Shown here: positions 1,978 to 40,195 of the stretch, piece by piece
How positions within the stretch are numbered: position 1 is the stretch's first letter
How the letters are laid out: each line of letters opens with the position of its first letter
Origin: Christensenella intestinihominis
GTDB lineage: Bacteria; Bacillota; Clostridia; Christensenellales; Christensenellaceae
DNA: 40,478 nt
Assembly: GCF_001678845.1 (NCBI RefSeq)
Contig: NZ_MAIQ01000012.1
Coordinates: forward strand, 10,867-51,344
Direction: 5' to 3'
Position numbers and translations under genes: made by a program
The notes under the pieces: model-generated
The model's database searches: none
Told to the model about the DNA's origin: nothing
The model's input: only the letters and a program-made list of their open reading frames with translations

Positions 1978-4043
1978 TTTGCTTTACTCCTATCGATCAG
2001 AAAACCGGCCTTATAGGTCGTCTTTGCAATTGCCTTGTCAAACACCTTTAGAAGCGCGGGCAGGAAGCATACCACCATGAAAAGGGACAACAGCGTTCCG
2101 CGCCCCAGCAAAAGCCCGATATCGGACACCGCCGGATTGGAGGAGGTCGCGTACAGGGTGAAGCCCGCCGTTGCAAGCGTCGCCGCGGACACCAGAATCG
2201 ATTTGAACGAATCCCCCATGGCCCGATGCATCGCCTCTTTTTGCGGCATGTTTTTTCGGTTCCTCATATAGGTGGTGGTCAGCAGGATGGCATAATCCAC
2301 CGTCGCCCCCAGCTGCACCGTGTTGAGCACCAGGTAACCGATAAAATTGATGGACGTTCCCGTAAAATACGGGATCGCCAGGTTGATCCAGATGCCCGCC
2401 TCGATGGTCAGCAAAAGGATAAACGGCAGGGTCCCTGATTTGAAGGTGACCAGCAGCACGAGGAAAATCGCAATAACCGCTAATATGGTGACAAACCGGT
2501 TATCCTCCTGCACCACATTTTTCATATCGTAAAGATTGGCGCTTTCCCCGGCCGAATATACCGTATCCCCATAATAAGACCGGGCAATTTCGTTGATTTC
2601 CTCCACTACGCCAAAGGCGAGGTCGCCCTCCGCCGGCGTGTTTGTATACACGATAATGCGGGCATAGTTGTCCGAATAGAACTGCCCGGTCACGTCCTCC
2701 CCCAAAAATTCCGGGGGATATACCGTTCCCGCCATATTGGCATAGGATACGACCGCCGTTACATGGCCTATGCCTTCGATCTCCTGCCCAAGCGCGAGCT
2801 CCTTCGATACGTCCCCCCGCGGCACAAGCAGCGCCATAATGGTGGACTGTCCAAACTCCTCCCGGATATCCTCTTTTGCACGACCGCTCTCGCTTGCCTG
2901 GGCGGCGCTTCCGTTCCCGTATACAAAACCGGTCTGGCCCTGTCCGAGGAAGGCGGGTACGATCACCAGAAGCACTAAAACCAGCGCCGGAACCGCAAGC
3001 TTCGAGAATACCTTGTTTATATTTTTGAAGTTCGGCATCAGCCGCCGGTGCTGTGTTTTGTCGATCAGCTTATAGGTGCACAGCGTAAGCGCGGGCAGGA
3101 AAACCATGGTTGTTACAAAGCTCAGGATAATCCCTTTTGCCAGGTTCCAGCCAAGGTCCGCCCCGATCTGGAAATTCATAAACGTAAGCGCCAGGAACCC
3201 GAACAGGGTGGTTGCCGCACTGGCCGCAATCGTAGAGGCCGACTCTTTGATCGCATGCCGCACGGCTTCGTTTACATCGCCGTATTTTTTCCGGTTATCG
3301 GCAAAGCTATGCAGGAAAAAAATGGCATAATCCAATGAAACCGCAAGCTGCAGGATCGGGCTCACGGAATTTGTCATAAAGGAGACTTCCCCGGCAAAGA
3401 TATTGGTTCCCATATTAATCAGGATGGAAATGCCGATGGTCAGGATAAAGAGCAGCGGCTCTATCCACGAGGAAGAGGATAAAATCAGGATTGCAATAAT
3501 GATGGGAAGCAGGATTGCCATTGCGTTCCCGACTTCCGCACCCGTCGCCTGCTGCATGGTTGCAAGGTCGGGCGCTTCCCCGGCGAGCGCGCCGTCTTCC
3601 CCGATCAGTCTCCGGATTCCATCCGAGGCTTCCTGCTCCATTCCCTCTTCGATCGTAACGGTGTAAAGGGCGTTTCCGTCCTTGTAATAACCCCGGACCG
3701 TATCCGCGTCCGCCGTTTCAATGGGCTTTTTGAGGTCTGCCACATCGTCAAGCCACATCACGCTGCCAACCCCGGGAACCCCGGCAAGCTCCCGCTTAAC
3801 CTCCAGCGCTTCCTCGATAGACACATCCTTTACCATGACGCTGGCGTTCGGCATATCCGCGTCGAACTCCCCTTCCATGATCTCCAGCGCCTTTGTCGAC
3901 TGCGCATCCGGCGGCAGGTAATCCGCCATATTGTAATTGACCGCTACAAACGACTGCAAAACCGCACATACCGCCGCCGCTGCAATAAACAGCGCAAGAA
4001 TCATTCGTTTATGTTTAATCGTCAGGTTTGCCAATCCGCTCAT
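1974..4043 (-). CDS. MMPL-family RND transporter
   Basis: The 689-residue protein has the two-fold RND layout. There is one membrane helix at about 14-33, an extracytoplasmic loop, then a bundle of helices, and the pattern repeats in the second half. Motifs such as SLDYAIFFLHSF and ATVDYAILLTTTYM in equivalent helices are typical of the MMPL/sterol-sensing-like family, which exports lipids or hydrophobic compounds using the proton gradient. I chose the ATG at 4043 because GGAGG lies 5 bases before it. An upstream in-frame ATG at 4121 would start within the promoter and operators. It forms an operon with the heptad-repeat protein and is divergent from a TetR regulator, the usual arrangement for a ligand-induced exporter. 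Substrate unknown. Confidence 0.92.
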   Translation of the reverse strand: MSGLANLTIKHKRMILALFIAAAAVCAVLQSFVAVNYNMADYLPPDAQSTKALEIMEGEFDADMPNASVMVKDVSIEEALEVKRELAGVPGVGSVMWLDDVADLKKPIETADADTVRGYYKDGNALYTVTIEEGMEQEASDGIRRLIGEDGALAGEAPDLATMQQATGAEVGNAMAILLPIIIAILILSSSSWIEPLLFILTIGISILINMGTNIFAGEVSFMTNSVSPILQLAVSLDYAIFFLHSFADNRKKYGDVNEAVRHAIKESASTIAASAATTLFGFLALTFMNFQIGADLGWNLAKGIILSFVTTMVFLPALTLCTYKLIDKTQHRRLMPNFKNINKVFSKLAVPALVLVLLVIVPAFLGQGQTGFVYGNGSAAQASESGRAKEDIREEFGQSTIMALLVPRGDVSKELALGQEIEGIGHVTAVVSYANMAGTVYPPEFLGEDVTGQFYSDNYARIIVYTNTPAEGDLAFGVVEEINEIARSYYGDTVYSAGESANLYDMKNVVQEDNRFVTILAVIAIFLVLLVTFKSGTLPFILLLTIEAGIWINLAIPYFTGTSINFIGYLVLNTVQLGATVDYAILLTTTYMRNRKNMPQKEAMHRAMGDSFKSILVSAATLATAGFTLYATSSNPAVSDIGLLLGRGTLLSLFMVVCFLPALLKVFDKAIAKTTYKAGFLIDRSKAK

Positions 4044-12698: not shown

Positions 12699-12733
12699 AA
12701 TCGTCTCCTTCAAATATGTACTGAAACTCTATT

Positions 12734-12762
12734 AGTTTATCATCATGCCATGCTTTTTTCAA
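12734..12762 (-). promoter_or_regulatory. Probable proS promoter
   Basis: TTGAAA (12757-12762) and TAAACT (12734-12739) on the minus strand are 17 bases apart, with a start near 12727 just upstream of the ProS ribosome site. Confidence 0.55.
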
Positions 12763-12785
12763 GCATCGCCCCTTACGCAAAATTT

Positions 12786-15700
12786 CTATTTCCTGCCCTT
12801 CCTCCGCACAAACAGGACCGCTCCCGCAGCGATCGCTGCCGCCGCTGCAACGGCAAGGACAATCCACGGGGTCATATCTTTCGTATCCCCGGTCCGCGGC
12901 CCGCTCTGCGGCTCGTTCTCCGGTCCTGCCGCGTCTCCGCTGCCCGCAGGGCCGGGCCCGGCGCTTTCGGCCTGCTTCCGGTCCGCAAGCACATATTCCG
13001 AGCAATGTTCGAGGGTAAACGCCGCATAGCCCGCGCTGTCCACATCCTGCGAGCTGATATAGTCGTACCCTGTTCCGTTGAAGTAATAAAGATGCGTTTC
13101 CGTTCCAGTCCCAAACGGCGGCACGGCAAGCACGGATACGGTTGCCTTGCCCGGAAGCGCCCCGCTGTGCCCGAAATTCAGGAACAGCAGCTTCGTTCCC
13201 TGCGGGAATACGGCGGCCTCCTTTGCCGCTTCGCCGGGCGTATTGGAGAATGCAAGGCTCACGTCCATTCCCTCCGCAATATCCATACCATGGAATACGA
13301 ACCGCGCGAGCACATTACCCGCACCATCCACAACCGCAAAAATAACCGTCTTATCCTGCCCCTTGATTTGCTCAAAAATTTCTTTGGGGACGGTCGTTCC
13401 TTCTTTCACGGGAACGAGCAGCGCCTGCTGCGCGCCAAGCCCGGACAAGGCTTCTTTTATTTTTTCGGTATCGAGGCCGTTTTCCATCAGCGGCAGGGAA
13501 ACAATCTCCTTGCCCTCCGCTCCCGGAATCTGCGCCTCCTGCAAAATCGTAACCGTTTTGCTTACCGATTTCGTATCGTCCGCCGTGCTCCGCGCCGTAA
13601 CCGTAACGGTGCCCGTCGCTTTTGCCGTAAACAGCACCGCCCGCTCTCCGCTGCGCCCGGTTTCCGTCTTGATATCGATGCTGTCAAGGTCGCCCGCATA
13701 GCTCCACTCAATTCCTGAAAATTCTTCCCTGTCCGGCGTAACCAGCGCCGCAGCGGAAAAATCGGCCGTCTTGCCGATTTCCAGGCGAAGCGAATCCGCA
13801 CTGTCGATCCCGACGCTTTCCACGCCCATCTGTTCTGCAATATTATTCTGCCGCAGCAGGATGCTCTCCGCGCTGCTCATTGCTGCAAACGTCCAACAGG
13901 ATGGAATCCAGCCCTGGTTTTTGACCGGGGTCACCGCGCCGATATCCCGCAGGTCAAATTTTTCGGGAAGGCTTGTTACCGGCGCGGCAGTCCGTCCCTG
14001 CGGAAGGATGCTTGTCTTATTCTGGCCGCTGTCCGACGCGCTGTCCGGCACCGCCGCCGGAGAGGAAAACCCGTCTGTTCCTTCAAGCTGGGCCGTGCTG
14101 AACGCGCGGCCCGCATTTCCCTGGGAGGAATCGTCCGTTCCGCCGCCCGCGCCGTCCGTAAACGCCTTGATGCAGTTATTTGCGGAATATTCCCGGGAAA
14201 TATCGGTCCAGTCCCGCCCGTCGGCGCTGGTGAAGCTTTGCCCGGCCTGCGCCCTGGCACGGTCCGAACGCCCGGCAATGGGCATTTCGACCGCCGCGAC
14301 AACGTCGCTCCCATCCCGGTTTTGCAGGCGTACGGTCACGCCGAATTCCTCACCGGCGGCAACGGGAATGCCTTCCCCGAGCCCTACCGTATAATATCCC
14401 TTGTATTTATGGGTGCCGCTTGCCGCATGGCGCGTCTCTCCCCCTGTTTCAATATAAACATCGTAATCCTGGTCCTCATGCATGGAATAGAACGATACGG
14501 CCTTTATAACCTGCCCCCCCGCCGCGGTGAACACATTTTTGGTATACAGCACCTTCCCCCGCGAATACTGGCTGGGTTCGTAAAGGTTCGTATAGCCGAG
14601 CGGGTCGTATTGGTAAATATTATCGTAATCGTTCGCCGGATCGTCTACGAATATAGCGGCCGCAGGATTGGAGGACAGGTCCGCACTGTAATAGGAAATA
14701 TAGAAAAAGCCGTTCTGCCCCTTTTCCGTCCCATAGTTGTTTTTGGCGATAAACGCGCCGTCGCCCGCGGGCGTATAGGAATTGCCGTCCACCATTACCG
14801 TAAATTTTTCCGCCGGCACCGTATCGTCCCATCCGACAAGCGAAATCGCATGCCCGCCGCCGGGCATGCCCGCATCCGGTTTACAGTAGTACGAGCCGGT
14901 TTCATCGTAATAACCGCCCTCGCCTTCCTGGTGGCGGATTCCGCAGTAAATCGCCCCATAGGTATAAATCGCGTTTTTATAATGGAGCGTATCCTCCGCT
15001 GTTTTTTCCCGGTCGGGCAGCAGGATCGCCTGCCGCAGGTGATAGCGGGCGGGCAGCTCATGGTAGGCGAATTCGCTTACGTCCCCTCCGTATTCATCCA
15101 GCATATACGGGTCGTCCGCTTCCATGACAGGACCGCTCCACCGCGCAAGATAAGCAAGCGCCATATAAATATCCCCGCCGGAAAGCACGCCGCCGCGCCC
15201 TTCGTCCGGCGTATAACACTCCTCGGAGGAATCCGCATTCAGCATCGCGTTAAGCATATTGTATTCGGATAAATCAAGGCCCTCCACGGCCTGTTTGGAA
15301 ATTGAAAGCGTATATTCCCCGGCGGAAAAACGCCCGTCCGGGCTTTGTACCACGGCATAGTAGTCTCCTTCGCCAAGCCCTGCCGTAATCCGCTGGTCCC
15401 CTGAAAGCGCGCTTTGCGCAACCTCGGTTCCATCGCTGCCAAGAAGCGTAAGCGAATAAGCCGCGCCGTCCCCGTCCGGCTGGAACAGCAGCAGCTCTGC
15501 GGGGGTGGCATAGTTATAATGGAATTTATAATAGTCCACATCCGCGGCGCTGTGAATCGTGGCCCGGATTTTAGAGGGGAAGGAAACGTCCGTCGCCGCC
15601 GTCCGGCTGTCATTGGGCTCGTACGCGTCGCCCACGCCCCCTACCGTATAGGAAAACCGCTGCACATCCCCCGGCGCAACCCCTTCCTGATAGGTGCGCG

Positions 15701-16586
15701 CACTGATGACCATATCCCCATTGACCGTAACCGTCGCCGTATTGCTGCCGGAATCCACGGTGCCTGCCGCGCCCTGCGCCGGTGCGGTCCCGTCCGTCGT
15801 GTAGAGGATTTTTTCTGCATCCGCCGCCGCGCGGAGTGTGACCTGCGTGCCAGCCGGAACCGTGCCCGGCGCGGGATCGGCCGTCACCATGCCGCTCTTT
15901 TGCACGGTATAGGCCGCCGTCGTGGGTTCGCTGCCCTTAAGCCCCGGCTTCCGCGCGCTTGCCAGAATCCTGCTGTCCCCCGTCAGCGCCAGCCCGCCCG
16001 TCGGATCATACGGCAAAGCGCTCGCAAGTCTCGGCGAGGTGCCGTCCAGCGTATAATAGATTTCAGCCCCCGGCGTTTCGCTTGAAAGCCCGATCAGCGT
16101 TCCCGCCGGATATTCTCCCTCCGCGGTATCAAAAGCTACGGGTTTGCAGGCTGCCGGGAGGAAACGCGCATTACCGGCCGCAACCGGGTCATACTCGTCG
16201 CCCGCCGCCATATCGATAAACGCTACCCCTACACCATCCAGTTCTTCCCGCGAAAGCACTCCGTCCGCCACCGCCTGTGCAATTGCTTCCCGCAGCGATA
16301 CCGGCCCCGTATACAGGATGCGTTCCGTAGCTCTCGCTTCCTTGTTTTTCAAAGTAAACGTCAGTATATAATAAATCGGTTCCCCGCCCGCCGGCGCAAT
16401 ATCGGCGATTTCGACCGTCGTATCCTCGCCTGCCGCATAAAGGTCCCCCTCTTCCGGCGGATCGCAATTTTTAAACACAAGCGAAAGCTCTGCGGGGCCT
16501 TCCTGCGCAAAAGCGAACGACGCGCAGGAAAATACCGCGGCCGCCGCCAAAATCACTGCCAAAAATATACAAACTGTTCTTTTCAT
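12786..16586 (-). CDS. Giant surface cysteine protease with a circularly permuted papain-like domain
   Basis: 1266 residues, in order: signal peptide (1-27); an unassigned domain; two chitobiase-C-terminal-like domains (about 140-312, each with YTxDGTxP); a PPC-like domain (about 318-430). Next comes the His/Asn half of a C1 peptidase of the lectin-like-domain group (about 436-650, LDLSEYNM, LARWSGPV, GGGHAISLVGWDD with H579, AKNNYG with N616) and its lectin-like region to about 812. A 60-residue linker leads to the Gln/Cys half (about 873-919, LPEKFDLRD, PVKNQG with Q891, PSCWTFAAM with C897). Then a BIG2-like domain, a C-terminal module (1026-1203) shared with the other giant surface protein, and a tail PRTGD, membrane helix, RRKGRK. 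In relatives the Cys half comes first. All four catalytic residues are present in one frame. Anchoring by sortase is possible; the substrate is unknown. Confidence 0.9.
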   Translation of the reverse strand: MKRTVCIFLAVILAAAAVFSCASFAFAQEGPAELSLVFKNCDPPEEGDLYAAGEDTTVEIADIAPAGGEPIYYILTFTLKNKEARATERILYTGPVSLREAIAQAVADGVLSREELDGVGVAFIDMAAGDEYDPVAAGNARFLPAACKPVAFDTAEGEYPAGTLIGLSSETPGAEIYYTLDGTSPRLASALPYDPTGGLALTGDSRILASARKPGLKGSEPTTAAYTVQKSGMVTADPAPGTVPAGTQVTLRAAADAEKILYTTDGTAPAQGAAGTVDSGSNTATVTVNGDMVISARTYQEGVAPGDVQRFSYTVGGVGDAYEPNDSRTAATDVSFPSKIRATIHSAADVDYYKFHYNYATPAELLLFQPDGDGAAYSLTLLGSDGTEVAQSALSGDQRITAGLGEGDYYAVVQSPDGRFSAGEYTLSISKQAVEGLDLSEYNMLNAMLNADSSEECYTPDEGRGGVLSGGDIYMALAYLARWSGPVMEADDPYMLDEYGGDVSEFAYHELPARYHLRQAILLPDREKTAEDTLHYKNAIYTYGAIYCGIRHQEGEGGYYDETGSYYCKPDAGMPGGGHAISLVGWDDTVPAEKFTVMVDGNSYTPAGDGAFIAKNNYGTEKGQNGFFYISYYSADLSSNPAAAIFVDDPANDYDNIYQYDPLGYTNLYEPSQYSRGKVLYTKNVFTAAGGQVIKAVSFYSMHEDQDYDVYIETGGETRHAASGTHKYKGYYTVGLGEGIPVAAGEEFGVTVRLQNRDGSDVVAAVEMPIAGRSDRARAQAGQSFTSADGRDWTDISREYSANNCIKAFTDGAGGGTDDSSQGNAGRAFSTAQLEGTDGFSSPAAVPDSASDSGQNKTSILPQGRTAAPVTSLPEKFDLRDIGAVTPVKNQGWIPSCWTFAAMSSAESILLRQNNIAEQMGVESVGIDSADSLRLEIGKTADFSAAALVTPDREEFSGIEWSYAGDLDSIDIKTETGRSGERAVLFTAKATGTVTVTARSTADDTKSVSKTVTILQEAQIPGAEGKEIVSLPLMENGLDTEKIKEALSGLGAQQALLVPVKEGTTVPKEIFEQIKGQDKTVIFAVVDGAGNVLARFVFHGMDIAEGMDVSLAFSNTPGEAAKEAAVFPQGTKLLFLNFGHSGALPGKATVSVLAVPPFGTGTETHLYYFNGTGYDYISSQDVDSAGYAAFTLEHCSEYVLADRKQAESAGPGPAGSGDAAGPENEPQSGPRTGDTKDMTPWIVLAVAAAAAIAAGAVLFVRRKGRK

Positions 16587-16647
16587 TTAACCCGCCTTGC
16601 CTCCATGCCTGCATCCGTGGCACACGCCATCAATTTTCATATCAAAT

Positions 16648-16656
16648 ATTATACCA
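16648..16656 (-). promoter_or_regulatory. Extended -10 promoter of the permuted protease gene
   Basis: TGGTATAAT is present on the minus strand. The -35 position holds only a poor match. The gene start is about 55 bases downstream and no riboswitch-like leader is seen. Confidence 0.55.
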
Positions 16657-16684
16657 TGATCGCGGCGCGTCCGCATCATACGGG

Positions 16685-16720
16685 TAAATAAAAATAAGGC
16701 CGTGCCCCGCGGCACAGCCC
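16685..16720 (-). terminator. Intrinsic terminator of the cobalamin transporter operon
   Basis: Stem GTGCC/GGCAC with an outer GGC/GCC pair after one mismatch, followed on the minus strand by TTATTTTTATTT. It lies directly after the btuD stop. Confidence 0.75.
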
Positions 16721-16738: not shown

Positions 16739-17509
16739 CTATTGCATTTCCGGGAGGATATAGGTGGAACCGTCTTCCGCCCGTATCATGCAGATTTTCG
16801 TGTCATACACCGCCTCGAGGATATCCTTTTTCAGGATGTTTTCCGTAAGCCCATATTTCACGATTCGTCCTTTTTCCATCAGCACAATCTGGTCGCAGTA
16901 ATGGCTTGCAAGGTTCAAATCATGCAGGACGCACACGCACAACAGCCCGCTTCCCGCGACTAAATCCCGCACCAGGGAAAGGATGCCCACCTGATGCTTA
17001 ATGTCGAGGTTTGATACCGGTTCGTCAAGCAGCAGGATGCTCGATTGCTGGACGAGGGCGCGCGCGATAATCATCCGCTGCCATTCCCCGCCCGAAAGCC
17101 CGATTACCGTCCTGTTTTCAAGGGAAGCAATTCCCGTTTTTTCAAGCGCTTCCCGGGCAAGGCGGATGTCCCCGGGGCTGTCGCCTTCAAAGGTTCTTTT
17201 GTGCGGATTGCGTCCCATCAAAACCGTTTCCAGCACCGTAAAGTCGTATTCCAGGGCATAGTTCTGCGGAACAAGCGCCATTTTTTTAGCCAGCGCCTTC
17301 ACCCCGATTTTCCGCACATCCGCGCCGTCGATTTCCACGCTTCCGCTTTCCGGCTTCAAATATCCGGAAACCGTACGCAAAAGCGTCGTCTTGCCAGCGC
17401 CGTTCGGGCCGATGACCCCAACCATTCCCGAAGCAAGGTCGAGCGAGATATCGTGCAGGATCGGCGTATCGTTGATCGAGCAGTTCAAATTTCGGATTAA
17501 AATTCCCAT
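16739..17509 (-). CDS. btuD: Cobalamin ABC transporter ATP-binding protein
   Basis: 256 residues with Walker A (GPNGAGKTT), Q-loop (LVPQNYAL), signature (LSGGEWQRMIIARAL), Walker B (ILLLDEPVSNLD) and H-loop (LHDLN). It belongs to the FecE/BtuD/FhuC importer family. The ATG at 17509 overlaps the permease stop by one base (TGATG), and a G-rich ribosome site precedes it; the open frame extends further upstream only as an overlap with the permease. Cobalamin as substrate follows from the riboswitch upstream of the operon; siderophore import is the family alternative. Confidence 0.92.
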   Translation of the reverse strand: MGILIRNLNCSINDTPILHDISLDLASGMVGVIGPNGAGKTTLLRTVSGYLKPESGSVEIDGADVRKIGVKALAKKMALVPQNYALEYDFTVLETVLMGRNPHKRTFEGDSPGDIRLAREALEKTGIASLENRTVIGLSGGEWQRMIIARALVQQSSILLLDEPVSNLDIKHQVGILSLVRDLVAGSGLLCVCVLHDLNLASHYCDQIVLMEKGRIVKYGLTENILKKDILEAVYDTKICMIRAEDGSTYILPEMQ

Positions 17510-18519
17510 CAGGCCGCCCCCTTCCTTCCGCGCCGCAGCAGGAAAATAAAGAAGGGCACGCCGAGGATAGAGGTCACGATTCCCACAGGCATTTCCTGCC
17601 CGTTTAAAACGGTACGGGCAATCACGTCGCAGAAAAGCAGGTACATTCCCCCGCCCACAAAGCACAGCGGCAGGAGTTTTTTATTGTCCGGCCCGGCAAC
17701 CATGCGCAGCAAATGCGGCACCATCAGCCCCACAAAGCCAATGATCCCGCTGACCGACACCGCCACCGCGGAGAGCAGGGAGGTCAAAATCAGCATATTC
17801 CGGCGCGTCTTATGCGTATCGACGCCAAGGCTCTGCGATACCTCGTCCCCGTTCAACATAATATTGAGCGGTGTTGCATAGAACATCAGCAGCGTTGCGC
17901 ATATGATAATCGCCGGAAGGGCAATCCATATTTTATCCCATGTCATGTTCGCAAGGCTGCCCATGTTCCACATGACCACATTTTCCATCTTATCGCGGTT
18001 CAGCAGCATAATCAGGTAGATGATTGCCGAAAACATAGCGCTCATGGAAAAGCCGGAGAGCAGGAGCGAAAAGGTCGATACCTTGCCGCGTATACGCGAA
18101 ATATTATATACCACAAAGACCGCGGCAAGCGCCCCCACAAAGCTGAATACCGCAATGGTTCCCGCCCCGAGCAGGGTCATGCCCGACATAAACGTCATGG
18201 CAACGGTCGCCCCGAGGGCCGCGCCCGACGAAATTCCAAGGACAAAGGAGTCTGCCATCGGGTTTTTGAACACCCCCTGCAGGCAGCAGCCCGAAACCGC
18301 AAGCGCCGCCCCCACGAGGAACGCGCCGATCGCCCGGGGCAGGCGGATGTTCAGGAAAATATTATAGATCGTGTTGGAAGCCGTCCCGTCCAGTATTTTT
18401 GCAAATTCCGCGACCGAAAAACCGGAACTCCCCACAAAAAAAGCGCACACAAAGGCGGCAACGCCGCCTAAGATGAGCGCCAGTAAAAGCGTATGGAATT
18501 GAACAGGCCCTTTTTTCAT
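17509..18519 (-). CDS. btuC: Cobalamin ABC transporter permease, FecCD family
   Basis: 336 residues with about ten membrane helices. GFVGLMVPHLLRM and the preceding LPRAIGAFLVGAALAVSGC are typical FecCD/BtuC motifs, the first contacting the ATPase. AAGGAGG lies a few bases before the ATG. It sits between btuF (15 bases upstream) and btuD (overlapping), forming the usual binding protein, permease, ATPase order. Confidence 0.93.
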   Translation of the reverse strand: MKKGPVQFHTLLLALILGGVAAFVCAFFVGSSGFSVAEFAKILDGTASNTIYNIFLNIRLPRAIGAFLVGAALAVSGCCLQGVFKNPMADSFVLGISSGAALGATVAMTFMSGMTLLGAGTIAVFSFVGALAAVFVVYNISRIRGKVSTFSLLLSGFSMSAMFSAIIYLIMLLNRDKMENVVMWNMGSLANMTWDKIWIALPAIIICATLLMFYATPLNIMLNGDEVSQSLGVDTHKTRRNMLILTSLLSAVAVSVSGIIGFVGLMVPHLLRMVAGPDNKKLLPLCFVGGGMYLLFCDVIARTVLNGQEMPVGIVTSILGVPFFIFLLRRGRKGAA

Positions 18520-18534
18520 AGGCCCTCCTTGCCG

Positions 18535-19509
18535 CTATTTATTGAGGATTTCGCTGATTTGCGTAATTGCTTCCGCAATGCGGGGGCCGGGCCGCGTGAA
18601 TACGTTTGCGTCCACTTCATATACGTTCCCGTTTTTCACAGCGTCAAGGTCCTGATAGCCCTGCGCGTCAGCAAGGCCTTCCGCCGTGTTGCCCATGCTG
18701 GTATCCAGCAGGATGATGTCCGGGTTCGCGAGCACCAGGTCTTCAACCGGGTATTCAACCCAGGAATATTCCGCATTTTCCGTGACGCATTTTCCGCCCG
18801 CAAGTTCGATCATTGTATTCATGAAGCTGCCGGGGCCGCTGGTCCAGTTCCCGTTATCCCCATAGCTCATAACGTAATAAACGGTCTTTTCCCCTTCCGG
18901 TTTATTCGCCTCTGCCGCGCTGACCGCCGCATCGATTTCGCCGACTACCGCCTCTGCTTCATCCTGCGCACCCAATACCTCGCCGACAAGCCGGATGGCC
19001 TTGGAAATATCGTCAAAGGTGGTCGCTTCCACACTCACAACCGTAATTCCAAGATTTTTCAGCTGGTCGATCGCTTCCTGCTGCAACCCGTTTCCCGCAA
19101 ATACAACATCCGGTTCAAGGGCCGCAACCTTCTCCACATCCGGGCCGTTGAAATCCCCGACCACTTCGATCGATTTCGTAATCTCCGGGTAATCGGAGCT
19201 TGCGTCGATGCCTACAAGCTGCTTTGACGCGCCGAGGGCGCACACGATTTCCGTGCCCGCAGGGGTAAGGGAAACAATTTTATCCGTCTTCCCCACCGTG
19301 ACCTCGCTGCCGAGCATATCGGTTACGGTAACGCCGCCGACCGCGGAAGACGCTTCCGCCGATTCCGTTGCTTCGGCAGAAACGCTCGCTGAAGGCGCCA
19401 CTGCCTGGGCCGCGGAGCTTGTTTCCGCAGGCGCGGGTTGTGCGCAGCCCGCAAATACCGCGATACATAGTACGATGCATGCAAATAATGCAATTCTTTT
19501 CCTGTTCAT
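18535..19509 (-). CDS. btuF: Cobalamin-binding lipoprotein
   Basis: 324 residues. The lipoprotein signal ends in VFAGC with C22 as the lipidated cysteine. A low-complexity Ala/Ser/Glu linker follows to about residue 58. Then comes a periplasmic-binding-protein fold of the BtuF/FecB type, with KIVSLTPAGTEIVCALG at its start and a GPRIAEAITQI segment near the end. It captures substrate outside the membrane and passes it to the BtuCD importer. AAGGAG is 8 bases before the ATG. It is the first gene after the cobalamin riboswitch, which supports B12 or a related corrinoid as ligand. Confidence 0.92.
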   Translation of the reverse strand: MNRKRIALFACIVLCIAVFAGCAQPAPAETSSAAQAVAPSASVSAEATESAEASSAVGGVTVTDMLGSEVTVGKTDKIVSLTPAGTEIVCALGASKQLVGIDASSDYPEITKSIEVVGDFNGPDVEKVAALEPDVVFAGNGLQQEAIDQLKNLGITVVSVEATTFDDISKAIRLVGEVLGAQDEAEAVVGEIDAAVSAAEANKPEGEKTVYYVMSYGDNGNWTSGPGSFMNTMIELAGGKCVTENAEYSWVEYPVEDLVLANPDIILLDTSMGNTAEGLADAQGYQDLDAVKNGNVYEVDANVFTRPGPRIAEAITQISEILNK

Positions 19510-19564: not shown

Positions 19565-19640
19565 ATAAAAAACACCTTTTCGGCATATGCAAAAAAGGCG
19601 TTAAGCACTTTTTTCCTTCCCGCCGAAGAAAAAAACGTCC
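19565..19640 (-). promoter_or_regulatory. Probable expression platform of the B12 riboswitch
   Basis: Between the aptamer and btuF the minus strand can form a TTCGGC/GCCGAA stem followed by AAGGTGTTTTTT, and an inner AAAAAAG/CTTTTTT stem. Both are T-tract hairpins that could terminate when B12 is bound. The exact switching pair is not certain. Confidence 0.45.
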
Positions 19641-19645
19641 CCAAT

Positions 19646-19836
19646 CCGGCAGGTTTTCCGACTTGACTTCATCACATCCTGCGTACCTTCCCGGCTTTCG
19701 CCAGTGGCCTTTTGCGGTTTCCCGCAAGCTTCCGGACGGTTTCCCGTCCGGCGCAGGCGCTCCGTCACACGGCAGCGGTGGGCTGTAGCGGCATACGCTT
19801 TCCCTTTTACCCGGTTTCCCGGCACCAGATTGGTTC
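19646..19836 (-). ncRNA. Cobalamin (B12) riboswitch
   Basis: The minus strand carries the 18-base B12 box at 19647-19664 (AAGTCGGAAAACCTGCCG), which matches the consensus at nearly all positions. It also has GCCACTGGCGAAAGCC with the GGGAAGGT that follows, and GGTGCCGGGAAACCGGG at the 5' end. The order and spacing are those of the class I cobalamin aptamer. It lies between a promoter and btuF and should lower expression of btuFCD when cobalamin is abundant. Confidence 0.93.
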
Positions 19837-19855
19837 AATTTCAATTACAAATATT

Positions 19856-35683: not shown

Positions 35684-38600
35684 CTATCCTCTTTTCCTGC
35701 GCCTGTGCACCAGGCCAGCGCCCACCGCAGCCACACTGCCCATCAGTGCGGCCAGGAACAGATATGGCAGCAAATCCTGCCCGTCGTCTGTTTTGGGCGC
35801 CGTCGCGGGTTCGGAATCGCCCGCGTTTAGGTCCACCGGCTTCGTATCACCGCCGGTAACGCCCGGGCTGTCTCCCCCGTTATTGTCCGGCCTGCCTGTG
35901 CCCGGATCGTCCGGTTCCTGCGTTCCCGTGCCGCCCGGGTTGTCGCTGCCGCCTGCCGTCGGGGGCGCAATCGTGGCCGCCTCCATCCTGCGGCTGGAAA
36001 CCGCGTAGGGCGAGGCGTGCGATATTGTATAGGTAATATAGCCGTTTTCATCCACCGCAAGCTCCTGCTCCTCGCAAAGCCCCCCTGTGGGATCGATCCA
36101 ATACAGATATACGTTACTTCCCGGAGCAAAATTCCCGCCGACATAATCCATCCGCGTCACCGGGCAGGGGAACTCCCCGTCGTGCGCCAACTGGATAAAC
36201 AGGATGCTCGCTCCCTCCGGCACGGAGTTTTTAGCTTGCTCCGCTACTTCGGTGCTTACCTCGTTGGTAAATCCAAGGTTGATGTCTTTTAGTTCTTCGG
36301 GCGCCACTCCAAGGGATAAATCAAGCGTAACCGTGGCTAAAATCTTTCCGTCTTCCCCTGTTGTTGCAAAAACCACGGCCTGTGAACCGTTGGCCACTGC
36401 GTCCACTATGCTTGCATCCACGTTTGCATTCACAGAATCTTTCGCATCCACTTTTATTACAACCACTTCTTCGGGTTTTGCACTTGAAATTGCTTCCCTG
36501 ACTGTGTCGGAATCAATTTTCCCATTCTTCATTTCGGGTTCCACCACAACCTGCTCTTTTCCGCCCATACCCGGCACGACAGGTTTTGTCTCCGGCTGCG
36601 CCATTACCGTGACGGTGCAGGAAGCCATTTTTTCGTTCGCTGACCGGGCAGTAACTGTCGCCGTACCCGGTGCAACGGGAAGCAATAAACCCGTTTGGTC
36701 AACCTCCAGCACCTGAGGATCGGAAGAGCTCCATGTAAGCCCCTTGTCCGTTGCCGCATCCGGCTTAACAAATGCAACCAAGCGTCCTTTGCTCCCCATA
36801 TCAAGGGAAATTGCTGAATTGCTCAAGGTTACGCTTGTCACCGCCACCGAGGCACTTGGAACGCTGACCGTCACTTCACATATCGCCTTCTTGCCTCCGG
36901 CTTCCGCCGTGATCGTCGCCGCACCGCTGCCAACCGCGGTTACTTTGCCGTTTTCAACCGCTGCCACTGCCGCGTTTGACGTACTCCAGGCGACCGTCTT
37001 ATTTGCCGCGTCCTCTGGCAGTACCGTTGCCGTCAGCTGTGCATCCGCGCCTTTTTCCAGCACCAGCGCGGCCCGGTCAAGGCTCACGCTTTCCACACCG
37101 GGAACAATCCGGAAGGAATACGCGGTATCGTCCACACTTTCGCCGTAATAATAGCTCGCGTTGCCGTCATATTTCGCGCGAACCCAGTAGGTTCCCTTTT
37201 CCGACGGTACCGCGATTTGAGTGCCGGGCTGTCCGTTGTCGTCCGTATAATACAGCAGGGTGACTGCCGCTCCCGGAATTACCGTCCCGTCCGTCTTTTT
37301 AACGGTAAGACCTTGTAATTCCACCGTCGGGGCAGTTCCCGCAATAAATACATCTTTTTCCAGTCCGTCGGCGCTTACGGTAGTGGGAATGCCTACCACA
37401 GCCTTCCCGCTAAGGCCGATGAATGAAACCTCCGTTCCATCCGGCACAAAATTTTCCATATTCATTGACTGTCCGTCATCCGCGGTTGCAACCAGCGTTC
37501 CCGCCGTTGTCCGGTAGGGCGTCACGCCGATTCTTGCGGCACTTCCGATCCCCGTCACGTCGATCGATTTGCCTGAAGTCAGCACAACATTGCTCGGGGC
37601 CCCGTTTTTCGTGTTTCCCGTTACCTGTGCATTTCCGGAAATATTCAGGCTGCCGTTTGACATATAAATTCCGCCTGCGCCCGTATCAAACGGCATGGTG
37701 TTTTCCGTCACCTGCGCCTGGTCGGTAACCGTAAGGCTGCCGCCCGTCATGTAAATTCCCGCAACCGGCATCCTGGCAGTAGTATCGTTTGATACGTTGC
37801 CTGTTATCTTTGCATTTCCTTTAAGGACCACAGTTCCCTTGGTCATGTAGAAAGCCGCCGCCCGGTTATTCCTGCCCGATGTATTTCCTGAAATTTCCCC
37901 ACCGTTCATGGTGAAAACGCCTTCTCCTGTGACAGAAACGCCGGGAGTCGCCTGGTTGCTGCCGCCGGTATTTCCGGTGATGGCGCCGCCGTTTATGGTA
38001 ACGCTGCAGCCGTCTCCCTGGAGGCAAACGCTCGCGCTCGTCGTGCCGTTTCCGGAATTTCCGGTAATGGTTCCCCCGTTCATCACGAACGTCGCCGGTT
38101 CCGTCGCCCAGATGCTGCTTGTAACCTGTACGCCCCCGCCCGCAAATCCGGAATTCCCGGAAATCGTTCCGCCGTTCATGGTAAAATGGCCGCCGGCAAC
38201 CGTTACGCCATAGCCGGAGCCGCCTTGGTTGGTCGTAACGCCGTTGCAGTTAGAAATTTCCCCGCCGTCCATGATAAGCGTGCCGTTTCCCATCAGCTTC
38301 ACGCCGTCTTTTGCATTTCCCATCACGGCGGACCCTTCTTTCATGACCAGCGTTCCGGACGTGGCCATATTTTCGCCCACCTGCACGCCGGAGGAACCAA
38401 GATGCTGCAGCACCGCGCCGCCCTCAAGCGTCAGCGTCGAATTTTCCTTTATCACAAAGCTGTTGCTCTTTCCGCCTTCCACAACCACGTTTGCAAATGT
38501 GGTATCGGCGGTTACGGTCAGCATGCTGGTCATCGTAACGGTGTGCGCCCCTTCGTCGCTGCGAATCGTGAGGGGCTTATAAAATTTTCCGTAAAGACCG

Positions 38601-39988
38601 TATCCCACGCCGTCTTCATCATACCCTGTCTGCGTGGTCGTTCCAAATTCGCAGTCTTTTCCAAGGAGGATCGTATCGCCCGCCTCCGCCTTGTTGATCG
38701 CCTTCTGGAGGGATTCATACTCTTCCCCGGTTCGTTCGTTTTTCGCTGCAAATTTCGTTTTGGAATATACGGTTCCCACCGGGATCAGGCCGCTGAATGC
38801 GCCCGCCGTTTCCCCCGCGGCTTTCCGGTACGCATAATTTCCCTGGCTGGTAAGCGTTCCATCCGCGCCAACCGTAAAATAAGCGTTTACGCCATACCCT
38901 ACCTTCAGCGTAACGACCAGGCTTCCGTTTCCGTCAAAAGAAGACGACGCCGAAACACCGCTTTCCGCCTGTGTCCCATCCGCCTGCAATTCCCCGACGA
39001 TCCTGCCCCTCACCGCGCTGCCGCTTTGATAGATTTCAATTGCAGGTGCGTCCGGATTTTCGCTGCCGTAAGTTCCGATATAGTCTGTCAATACAACTGT
39101 TTTTCCCGGCTGTTCCGACGGTTGGAATAAGTTTTTCAAATATCCCTTATAGGTGTAGTTCCCGTCCATCTGTTCCCAGGTCAAGGCGCCGTCCACAAGC
39201 CTTTGCGCCCATACTCCCGCATAGGAAACGGTGAACTGGAGCAAATCATAATCGCCATATGCCACGCTCCTGAAAAACGCCGCGTCCAGCGCCAAAACCT
39301 CGCCCAGCCTTACGGTCGCGTCATAGCTGTCGTCCCCTACCTGAAAGCCTACCGCTGCGTCACCCCGGACGTTTCCCGCATAATCGTCTTTTGCGGTGAT
39401 TTTCAGGTAGACCTTCTCTTGTTCGGCGGACATCACAGAAGCGGCCCTGAACTCATAAAAAATATTCGAACCCGTATTCCCGTTAAAAGAAGAATCCATT
39501 TTCTCGAGATGATCCGGGGCCGTTCCCACCCAAACATCCAGCACGTCCGGATTTGTATGGTCCTCTGCAATCGCATTGCTTTCAGTCTGCGGAATTTCCC
39601 TTGCCGATTCTTCCTGTATTGGTTGCTGGTCCCGTTCCACCGGCAGCACAGCCTGAGATGCGAATGTTTGTTCTGTATCCGGCTGCAGCGAAGGCTCCAC
39701 CGTCGCTTCCGCGCTTACGCTTTCCTGCGGCTGGGCCATTTCCCCGGCCCCTCCCTCTTGTTCGCCGCTTTCCTCCGGCATCCCGGATTCTTCCGGCTGC
39801 AGTGCATTGGGCTCTGCCGTTTCCTCCGGTACTTCTGCCTGCTCCGCCGTCGTTTCTGCATCTGTCGCGCCCGTCGCGTCCGGCTGGGCGTTTGATATCC
39901 CAAATATGCCAAAAATAAGTGCGGACGCCAATAAGACCGCAATCCACCTCTTTGTTTTGCTGCCTGCTTTTTTTGTTTGTTTTCTCAT
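35684..39988 (-). CDS. Giant beta-helix surface protein under c-di-GMP riboswitch control
   Basis: 1434 residues. In order: signal peptide (1-35); acidic Glu/Pro/Ala-rich stalk (about 36-145); two unassigned beta-rich regions (about 150-405); a right-handed beta-helix (about 415-865) with many MNGGxIxGN-type rungs and an N-terminal cap of the pectate-lyase-like kind. Next an Ig-like region (about 885-955), two BIG2-like domains (about 960-1130), and a module (about 1143-1331) homologous to that of the permuted protease. The Gly/Pro/Asp-rich wall-spanning region leads to APKTDD, a membrane helix and HRRRKRG. The ATG at 39988 has GGGGAAG just upstream; one five codons earlier has no site. It is probably an adhesin or a carbohydrate-binding surface factor; enzymatic activity cannot be excluded. 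PKTDD differs from the standard sortase motif in the glycine. Confidence 0.9.
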   Translation of the reverse strand: MRKQTKKAGSKTKRWIAVLLASALIFGIFGISNAQPDATGATDAETTAEQAEVPEETAEPNALQPEESGMPEESGEQEGGAGEMAQPQESVSAEATVEPSLQPDTEQTFASQAVLPVERDQQPIQEESAREIPQTESNAIAEDHTNPDVLDVWVGTAPDHLEKMDSSFNGNTGSNIFYEFRAASVMSAEQEKVYLKITAKDDYAGNVRGDAAVGFQVGDDSYDATVRLGEVLALDAAFFRSVAYGDYDLLQFTVSYAGVWAQRLVDGALTWEQMDGNYTYKGYLKNLFQPSEQPGKTVVLTDYIGTYGSENPDAPAIEIYQSGSAVRGRIVGELQADGTQAESGVSASSSFDGNGSLVVTLKVGYGVNAYFTVGADGTLTSQGNYAYRKAAGETAGAFSGLIPVGTVYSKTKFAAKNERTGEEYESLQKAINKAEAGDTILLGKDCEFGTTTQTGYDEDGVGYGLYGKFYKPLTIRSDEGAHTVTMTSMLTVTADTTFANVVVEGGKSNSFVIKENSTLTLEGGAVLQHLGSSGVQVGENMATSGTLVMKEGSAVMGNAKDGVKLMGNGTLIMDGGEISNCNGVTTNQGGSGYGVTVAGGHFTMNGGTISGNSGFAGGGVQVTSSIWATEPATFVMNGGTITGNSGNGTTSASVCLQGDGCSVTINGGAITGNTGGSNQATPGVSVTGEGVFTMNGGEISGNTSGRNNRAAAFYMTKGTVVLKGNAKITGNVSNDTTARMPVAGIYMTGGSLTVTDQAQVTENTMPFDTGAGGIYMSNGSLNISGNAQVTGNTKNGAPSNVVLTSGKSIDVTGIGSAARIGVTPYRTTAGTLVATADDGQSMNMENFVPDGTEVSFIGLSGKAVVGIPTTVSADGLEKDVFIAGTAPTVELQGLTVKKTDGTVIPGAAVTLLYYTDDNGQPGTQIAVPSEKGTYWVRAKYDGNASYYYGESVDDTAYSFRIVPGVESVSLDRAALVLEKGADAQLTATVLPEDAANKTVAWSTSNAAVAAVENGKVTAVGSGAATITAEAGGKKAICEVTVSVPSASVAVTSVTLSNSAISLDMGSKGRLVAFVKPDAATDKGLTWSSSDPQVLEVDQTGLLLPVAPGTATVTARSANEKMASCTVTVMAQPETKPVVPGMGGKEQVVVEPEMKNGKIDSDTVREAISSAKPEEVVVIKVDAKDSVNANVDASIVDAVANGSQAVVFATTGEDGKILATVTLDLSLGVAPEELKDINLGFTNEVSTEVAEQAKNSVPEGASILFIQLAHDGEFPCPVTRMDYVGGNFAPGSNVYLYWIDPTGGLCEEQELAVDENGYITYTISHASPYAVSSRRMEAATIAPPTAGGSDNPGGTGTQEPDDPGTGRPDNNGGDSPGVTGGDTKPVDLNAGDSEPATAPKTDDGQDLLPYLFLAALMGSVAAVGAGLVHRRRKRG

Positions 39989-40054
39989 GATTTGCTTCCC
40001 CATCTGTTTCTGGATCAGTTTGGTCCGCAGAGATGGTTTTGCAGAAGTGTAATT

Positions 40055-40080: not shown

Positions 40081-40101
40081 ATAAGGAAATAACATCACTT
40101 A

Positions 40102-40182
40102 ACCTGCAACCCGGCCATCCTGCTTTCCGTTTAGACCCGTTGGCTTTGCGTCCCCGCCTTTCGACAGGTTTGCCTTTATAGA
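40102..40182 (-). ncRNA. c-di-GMP-I (GEMM) riboswitch
   Basis: The minus strand reads AAAGGCAAACC, a stem CCTGTC-GAAA-GGCGGG with the GNRA tetraloop, the near-invariant GGGACGCAAAGCC, then an arm with TCTAAACGG holding the tetraloop receptor. The aptamer closes with GGCCGGGTTGCAGG. These are the class I c-di-GMP aptamer landmarks in the right order. It lies between a promoter and the giant surface protein gene. Confidence 0.88.
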
Positions 40183-40195
40183 TTATCTTACTTTT

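Follow-up and report, generated by a model that had tools for sequence, protein, structure and literature searches.

A protease with its halves in swapped order

How can a papain-like protease remain recognisable when the half that carries its cysteine comes after the half that carries its histidine? The question is raised by a gene on a 40,478-nucleotide stretch of the Christensenella intestinihominis genome (RefSeq assembly GCF_001678845.1, contig NZ_MAIQ01000012.1, positions 10,867 to 51,344), which we refer to as the window. An earlier sequence-only reading had proposed that this gene encodes, in a single polypeptide, a circularly permuted C1 peptidase with a lectin-like domain. We found that the two Peptidase_C1 halves are indeed swapped, and that the permutation is very likely real, conserved and of single origin. 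The gene and its core features are given below in window positions.

12786-16586, minus strand: complete permuted-protease gene; one uninterrupted frame of 1266 amino acids (aa), encoding a secreted-type protein with a permuted papain-like domain
14637-15287, minus strand: His/Asn half of Peptidase_C1, residues 434-650 (PF00112 profile 66-204)
14850-14852, minus strand: predicted catalytic residue His579, within GGGHAISLVGW (residues 576-586)
14739-14741, minus strand: Asn616, a papain-type Asn (KNNYG), within AKNNYG (residues 614-619)
14157-14618, minus strand: Lectin_like domain, residues 657-810 (PF18560, 123 bits)
13971-14150, minus strand: linker, residues 813-872, in the place of the propeptide of a canonical relative
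13833-13970, minus strand: Cys half of Peptidase_C1 with the active-site helix, residues 873-918 (PF00112 profile 1-44)
13914-13916, minus strand: Gln891, predicted oxyanion hole
13896-13898, minus strand: predicted catalytic residue Cys897

Over the whole protein, PF00112 scored 51.8 bits in Pfam. In the genome profile search the match fell into two parts, profile positions 1-44 (31.6 bits) and 66-204 (26.3 bits), each of which exceeds the cut-off of 20.7 bits on its own, and the 66-204 part lies upstream of the 1-44 part in the protein. The gene shows that a domain detected as two partial matches in reversed order need not be noise but can reflect a genuine arrangement. The profile matches bear out the reversed order within one frame, and all residue positions of the motifs named in the sequence-only reading were confirmed in the translation. 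The His/Asn half opens with LDLSEYNM (residues 437-444), CIKAF occupies residues 805-809, and the Cys half extends from LPEKFDLRD (residues 873-881) to AESILLRQNNIAEQ (residues 906-919). The papain-site set of Gln891, Cys897, His579 and Asn616 is complete. In C1A peptidases the Cys half is N-terminal to the His half; this order is reversed in the window gene and in 16 other permuted genes. The Lectin_like domain follows the His/Asn half, as in the C1A family with Lectin_like.

A permutation, as the same reading had pointed out, leaves no place for another Cys half N-terminal to residue 436. None was found there in the window protein, and each of the 17 permuted genes gave a single Cys-half match, with the N-terminal parts of L045 (at a contig end) and L154 (a cut locus) lying outside this search. 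The nearest solved sequence, Cwp84 (4ci7), was aligned by phmmer as two stretches in reversed order: residues 468-810 with chain residues 133-467 on the His side (64.6 bits), and residues 858-910 with chain residues 49-102 on the Cys side (15.2 bits, weak alone). The Cys half is closer to plant papains than to Cwp84, for example to ervatamin C (phmmer E-value of 9.5 × 10−7).

Distribution of the permuted order

The search for homologues of the same order, which the sequence-only reading had advised, yielded 17 permuted genes in 16 genomes once repeats were removed. These counts are lower bounds: E-value limits differ among the whole-genome searches, the genome sets overlap, and half order was checked by script for fetched loci only, being judged elsewhere from matches that ended before the Cys half. 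The scans were queried with permuted proteins, which biases recovery towards permuted genes. Three pairs of loci (L005/L043, L006/L044 and L008/L045) are the same records, and each pair was counted once.

A scan of species genomes with the permuted core kept the best 80 of 104 relatives. Among these 80, the Cys half came after the His half in eight loci (nine frames), from C. hongkongensis, Christensenella sp. Marseille-P2438, a Christensenellaceae bacterium (L045, cut by the contig end), the complete genome of Claveliimonas bilis, two Lachnospiraceae bins, one uncultured Eubacteriales bin and one Firmicutes bin with two genes (L049). Canonical order was found in 70 of the 80, although L094 and L115 were so classed on weak Cys-half scores of 9-13 bits, and the Cys half was not found in L073 and L076.

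Wider searches recovered both orders. Matches occurred in 65 of 391 genomes of the class (at least four with a permuted gene), in 18 of 40 genomes of the G437 family (at least three permuted), in 140 of 397 genomes of the Claveliimonas family (at least three permuted: G476, G681 and G526) and in 36 of 396 genomes of the window's order. In this last set at least six were permuted, all six within the window's family, and the four loci ranked next by score were canonical. Three plasmid records matched, with a query coverage of at most 76%. In total, 213 frames were classed, many of them from overlapping loci: 162 were canonical, 46 were permuted and collapse to the 17 genes, and five lacked a Cys half (L073, L076, L149, L185 and L187).

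Within the genus, five of six genomes had a C1 match, each showing solely the two swapped pieces, and Lectin_like occurred once in each of these five. No other PF00112 or PF18560 match was found in them. With no canonical copy in these five genomes, none could supply a half in trans there. The domains that flank the peptidase vary among permuted members and include LRR_5, Flg_new, PPC and choline-binding repeats.

Some individual loci had further peculiarities. The L049 frames at 3308 and 7242 are two consecutive permuted genes on one contig; the one that was scanned has three Big_2 stretches, the best of them after the peptidase unit. The L045 copy (Christensenellaceae K19) is truncated close to the end of its contig: the frame starts a short way upstream of the His motif, and the analysis drew on the 3′ part only. 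Near position 6353 of L053, the permuted protein terminates directly past the active-site (Cys) helix, and the next frame appears tyrS-like by eye. G479, the genome of L051, holds an extra His half without a Cys half in frame on a short contig (L185), and a lone Cys half on a separate contig (L190). These are possibly one more permuted gene in pieces, outside the 17.

Phylogeny of permuted and canonical genes

For phylogenetic analysis, the two halves were aligned separately and then concatenated in the same order for every row, leaving half order absent from the tree data. After filtering by score and length, 149 rows were left, and these fell to 103 (17 permuted and 86 canonical) once similar canonical rows had been thinned. 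In the resulting tree a single branch separates the 17 permuted genes from all canonical ones, with a support of 93 in the Shimodaira–Hasegawa-like approximate likelihood ratio test (SH-aLRT), and half order requires one change, compared to a mean of 16 after shuffling. A second, further thinned tree of 76 rows (16 permuted and 60 canonical) omitted the long, permuted L220 and six canonical loci. Here the permuted group had a support of 96/88, and one change sufficed in 94% of 200 bootstrap trees.

The permuted clade of the 103-row tree consists of two parts. The larger, of 12 rows, contains Christensenellaceae, Claveliimonas, the G437 family, G681 and G526, and the smaller, of five rows, contains the Lachnospiraceae, Eubacteriales and Firmicutes bins. 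The trees are unrooted, and near-copies favour any clustering; the most likely reading of these sequences is that the permutation arose once, in an ancestor within Clostridia.

Selection and catalytic residues

We compared five segments of the window gene with those of three congeners by the ratio of nonsynonymous to synonymous substitution rates (dN/dS), a rough measure at these distances (see below). The ratios were 0.015-0.045 for the Cys half, 0.041-0.068 for the His half with the lectin domain, 0.12-0.17 for the region past the Cys half, 0.16-0.19 for the N-terminal part and 0.19-0.34 for the linker. In each of the three comparisons the Cys half had the lowest ratio, followed by the His half, and the linker had the highest. 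All 17 permuted genes retain Gln, Cys and His (the His of L223 lies within GGHYVTLIGW), and 16 retain Asn. Given that the arrangement is genuine and conserved and that selection on it is strong, the permuted protease probably still functions as an enzyme.

Predicted structure

Residues 435-930 were folded with AlphaFold2 from an input of 10 permuted rows and 49 unchanged fragments of canonical relatives (in this first fold, 24 of 37 prepared His-half fragments and 25 of 37 Cys-half fragments). The model had a mean predicted local distance difference test score (pLDDT) of 82.4 and a predicted template modelling score (pTM) of 0.86. Four 10-residue blocks inside the Cys half (875-914) reached a pLDDT of 87-95, and values below 50 were found in the linker (820-862) and the last three residues. 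A model of the L046 core had a pTM of 0.79, with its Cys half at 81-94. The top three Foldseek chains were all Cwp84 (E-values of 1.0 × 10−21 to 4.9 × 10−21, template modelling score to the target 0.64-0.73); Foldseek aligns in sequence order, so the position of the moved half is outside its reach. From the local confidence and the overall pTM we infer that the active-site helix lies in its native place. An intramolecular active enzyme is likely.

The linker and the route of permutation

In many canonical relatives the Cys half is preceded by a segment of the form APLNPxFxEY ... G.IPSPVDLS ... LPxxYDLR. The motif [NSD]P.[FY][VLIAEQS] was present in 25 of 86 canonical pre-Cys segments, compared to 2.25 after shuffling, and in four of 17 linkers (L046, L053 and both L049 genes), compared to 0.34. 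A profile hidden Markov model (HMM) of the propeptide was built from 23 canonical segments, a few of them Methanobrevibacter rows whose match is probably fortuitous. It scored 24.2 bits on the L046 linker (best of 20 shuffles 9.3), 9.4 on L053 (best shuffle 4.5), 8.2 on the second L049 gene (3.8) and 3.7 on L051 (1.9). By HMM ends, the 17 linkers are 43-88 residues long, which overstates the length where the lectin match stops early (L220, L154, L221 and L222). Weak helices in the L046 linker (blocks 67-70) were not counted as evidence, because the added canonical propeptides aligned poorly in their N-terminal portions.

The propeptide of Cwp84, as described in PMC4089489, has 59 residues (33-91); it is wound around the lectin-like domain before passing into the active-site groove, in the direction of the mature N-terminus. 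Since a propeptide path of this type already links the lectin-like domain to the mature N-terminus, joining the ends would need no new route. A Methanobrevibacter relative, L102 (frame at 797, 2061 codons), contains two complete canonical C1/lectin-like units in one frame, in the order C-H-C-H.

We suggest the following history. After a fused tandem duplication, only the inner halves would have been retained, the second from copy 1 and the first from copy 2, placing the new termini just past the active-site helix and ahead of the xLSExxM segment. The resulting chain would run from the His/Asn half through the lectin-like domain and the linker to the Gln/Cys half, and the two halves would fold together in one molecule, rebuilding the normal papain active site. 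The linker would replace the ancestral propeptide, the old propeptide having become a joining loop. Tandem duplication with loss of both outer halves had been put forward in the sequence-only reading. It is most likely the route, and it finds some support in the four motif-bearing linkers, one of them at 24 bits, and in the L102 fusion; for the window protein itself that support fails, its linker being without propeptide homology, and we infer only by way of its relatives that this linker, too, may be a former propeptide. On balance, we consider it likely that the protein is a secreted, probably wall-anchored, Cwp84-like C1A peptidase that was permuted once and whose propeptide became the joining loop.

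An inhibitory propeptide turned joining loop would offer a simple structural reason why the cut was tolerated. More tentatively, a cut in the linker hinge may switch the enzyme on and at the same time leave it as two chains, a possibility that we regard as rather doubtful. If the hinge were cut, the wall-sorting signal would be on the Cys-half chain only, and the lectin-bearing chain would be freed or loosened.

Alternative explanations

The order might reflect assembly error or local DNA shuffling and not a fixed arrangement. Assembly error, an artefact that the sequence-only reading had allowed for, is ruled out by the same order in independent assemblies, four of which are single-contig (G001, G003, G437 and G463). 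The order is shared by 17 genes in 16 genomes whose identity to the window core falls to ~30%, and the DNA repeats in 12700-16700 are only short and imperfect (four direct families of 19-33 nucleotides (nt) and one 16-nt inverted pair), none of them bordering the moved half, which leaves this explanation vanishingly improbable. It is also very improbable that the permuted domain is a pseudoenzyme, retained as a binding module and not as a protease: the Asp of L220 in place of Asn would fit such a role, but Gln, Cys and His are retained throughout and no measured segment has a lower dN/dS than the Cys half. A domain swap, in which the Cys half completes the His half of a neighbouring molecule in a dimer or chain at the cell surface, is somewhat less far-fetched, if still improbable. 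The linker of the window model is disordered, with the halves on opposite sides of it, and the L046 model is uncertain for the part of the His half meant to face the Cys half. Conversely, the single-chain window model is confident overall, the linker is similar in length to the Cwp84 propeptide, which bridges the lectin-like domain and the active site within one chain, and the lack of a canonical partner in the five C1-bearing Christensenella genomes would limit exchange to identical chains.

Unlikely, although the least so of these alternatives, is a history in which the Cys half was gained C-terminally from another C1 gene and the native one lost, by shuffling without tandem duplication. Domain shuffling is evidently easy in this group, considering how the flanking domains differ between members, and the window linker has no propeptide signal; yet the propeptide-like linkers in L046, L053, L051 and one L049 gene fit a head-to-tail fusion, as does the in-frame tandem fusion of a canonical relative in L102. 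The two histories are hard to separate, because a borrowed Cys half could carry its own propeptide.

Several observations weigh against a single-origin, propeptide-joined, intramolecular enzyme. Congener G002 has no C1 match, the gene being absent there, and Asn is replaced by Asp in L220. The dN/dS ratios are rough, with dS at 0.6-2.1 and in some cases above 1. The propeptide HMM gave no signal in 12 of 17 linkers, including that of the window, and scored the first L049 gene (3308) at 5.3, below its shuffles (7.3). At the edges of the Cys half, the pLDDT of the window model falls to 76 and 61. In the L046 model confidence is poor where the His half begins, in the part expected to face the Cys half (40-85 in the first seven blocks, with residues 19-33 and 63-67 below 50), and this weakens that model as support. 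Finally, pTM and pLDDT bear only indirectly on the Cys897-His579 geometry.

Comparison with known papain-like enzymes

Cwp84 of Clostridioides difficile (4ci7, 4d59) resembles the window protein in the sequence of both halves, in its Gln/Cys/His site and in being a surface-type protein, and both have the lectin-like domain after the His half. They differ in the order of the halves, and the segment before the Cys half is internal in the window protein and tethered at both ends. The window protein has the papain-type Asn (KNNYG) where Cwp84 reads KSSWG in the phmmer alignment, and it ends in a sorting-type C-terminus where Cwp84 has cell-wall-binding repeats. Judged by its sequence, the window protein is a permuted derivative of C1A that departs from the family in one defining feature, its half order.

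A similar layout, with the His part first and the active-site helix near the C-terminal end, is known from permuted NlpC/P60 enzymes (YaeF/YiiX and LRAT; PMC3142127) and from PPPDE. The window protein resembles these enzymes in layout without being a member: no NlpC/P60, LRAT or YiiX match was found at E-values up to 1 in Pfam and NCBIfam scans of the protein, and, as a further difference, the His halves of permuted proteins and their canonical relatives still align here at roughly 30-40% identity. A GD motif on strand β1 is given in PMC10318531 as another feature of the permuted NlpC/P60 superfamily. LupA (PF18242), a permuted relative of LotA, provides a precedent for a permuted branch beside close canonical papain-like kin, although it belongs to a Legionella deubiquitinase group in another cluster, not to C1 (PMC10318531). 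That survey of papain-like enzymes also states that no core element is lost in cluster I, to which C1 belongs, and lists permuted families elsewhere among its clusters, including LupA beside its near relative LotA. L102 is the sort of intermediate that the duplication model needs, with two full units fused, but it is canonical in order, archaeal and outside the permuted clade.

Permuted papain-like folds are thus known, and we found none reported inside family C1, the papain family proper, in the open-access library that was searched. There, in agreement with the sequence-only reading, we found no report of a permuted C1/lectin-like member, nor of a permuted C1, papain or cathepsin of this group, and the accessible portion of the C1A survey PMC10380794 has no word starting with "permut". 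Since the permuted and canonical forms still align well, a single origin is supported, and the family offers propeptide-like linkers as well as a relative with a tandem fusion, it becomes directly testable here how a working protease comes through such a cut.

Flanking domains and genomic neighbourhood

Outside the permuted core, the protein contains the following features.

16506-16586, minus strand: signal-peptide-like N-terminus, residues 1-27 (translation judged by eye)
15921-16124, minus strand: CHB_HEX_C_1 / Fn3_assoc domain, residues 155-222 (Pfam, the better of two stretches)
15297-15635, minus strand: putative PPC-like region, residues ~318-430, directly 5′ of the permuted domain (suggested by relatives)
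13533-13817, minus strand: putative Ig-like region, residues ~924-1018 (suggested by relatives)
12789-12902, minus strand: C-terminal sorting-type signal (PRTGD, hydrophobic stretch, basic tail), residues 1229-1266

Neither the PPC-like nor the Ig-like region has a Pfam match in the window protein. At the place equivalent to the former, Pfam assigned PPC to relative L047 (33.3 bits) and, slightly below the cut-off of 25.9, to L007 (25.2 bits); Big_2 follows the Cys half in L047, L049 and L220. The sorting-type signal had sub-threshold matches to Gram_pos_anchor (13.4 bits, cut-off 20) and GVDTG_CTERM (19.9 bits, cut-off 29), and the genome has 10 sortase matches. From these sequence features, the window protein is probably anchored to the wall.

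A set of transporter genes (16739-19509, minus strand), encoding a periplasmic-binding protein, a FecCD permease and an ATP-binding cassette (ABC) ATPase, ends ~150 nt upstream of the permuted protease gene. Ahead of it is a cobalamin riboswitch (19631-19844, minus strand, 60.8 bits), and the set probably serves B12 uptake. Elsewhere in the window, gene 35684-40003 (minus strand) encodes a 1439-aa surface-type protein with Big_2 domains. Because a cyclic di-GMP (c-di-GMP) riboswitch of the c-di-GMP-I-GGC type (40101-40183, minus strand, 66.1 bits) lies ~100 nt upstream of this gene, the 1439-aa protein may be under c-di-GMP control.

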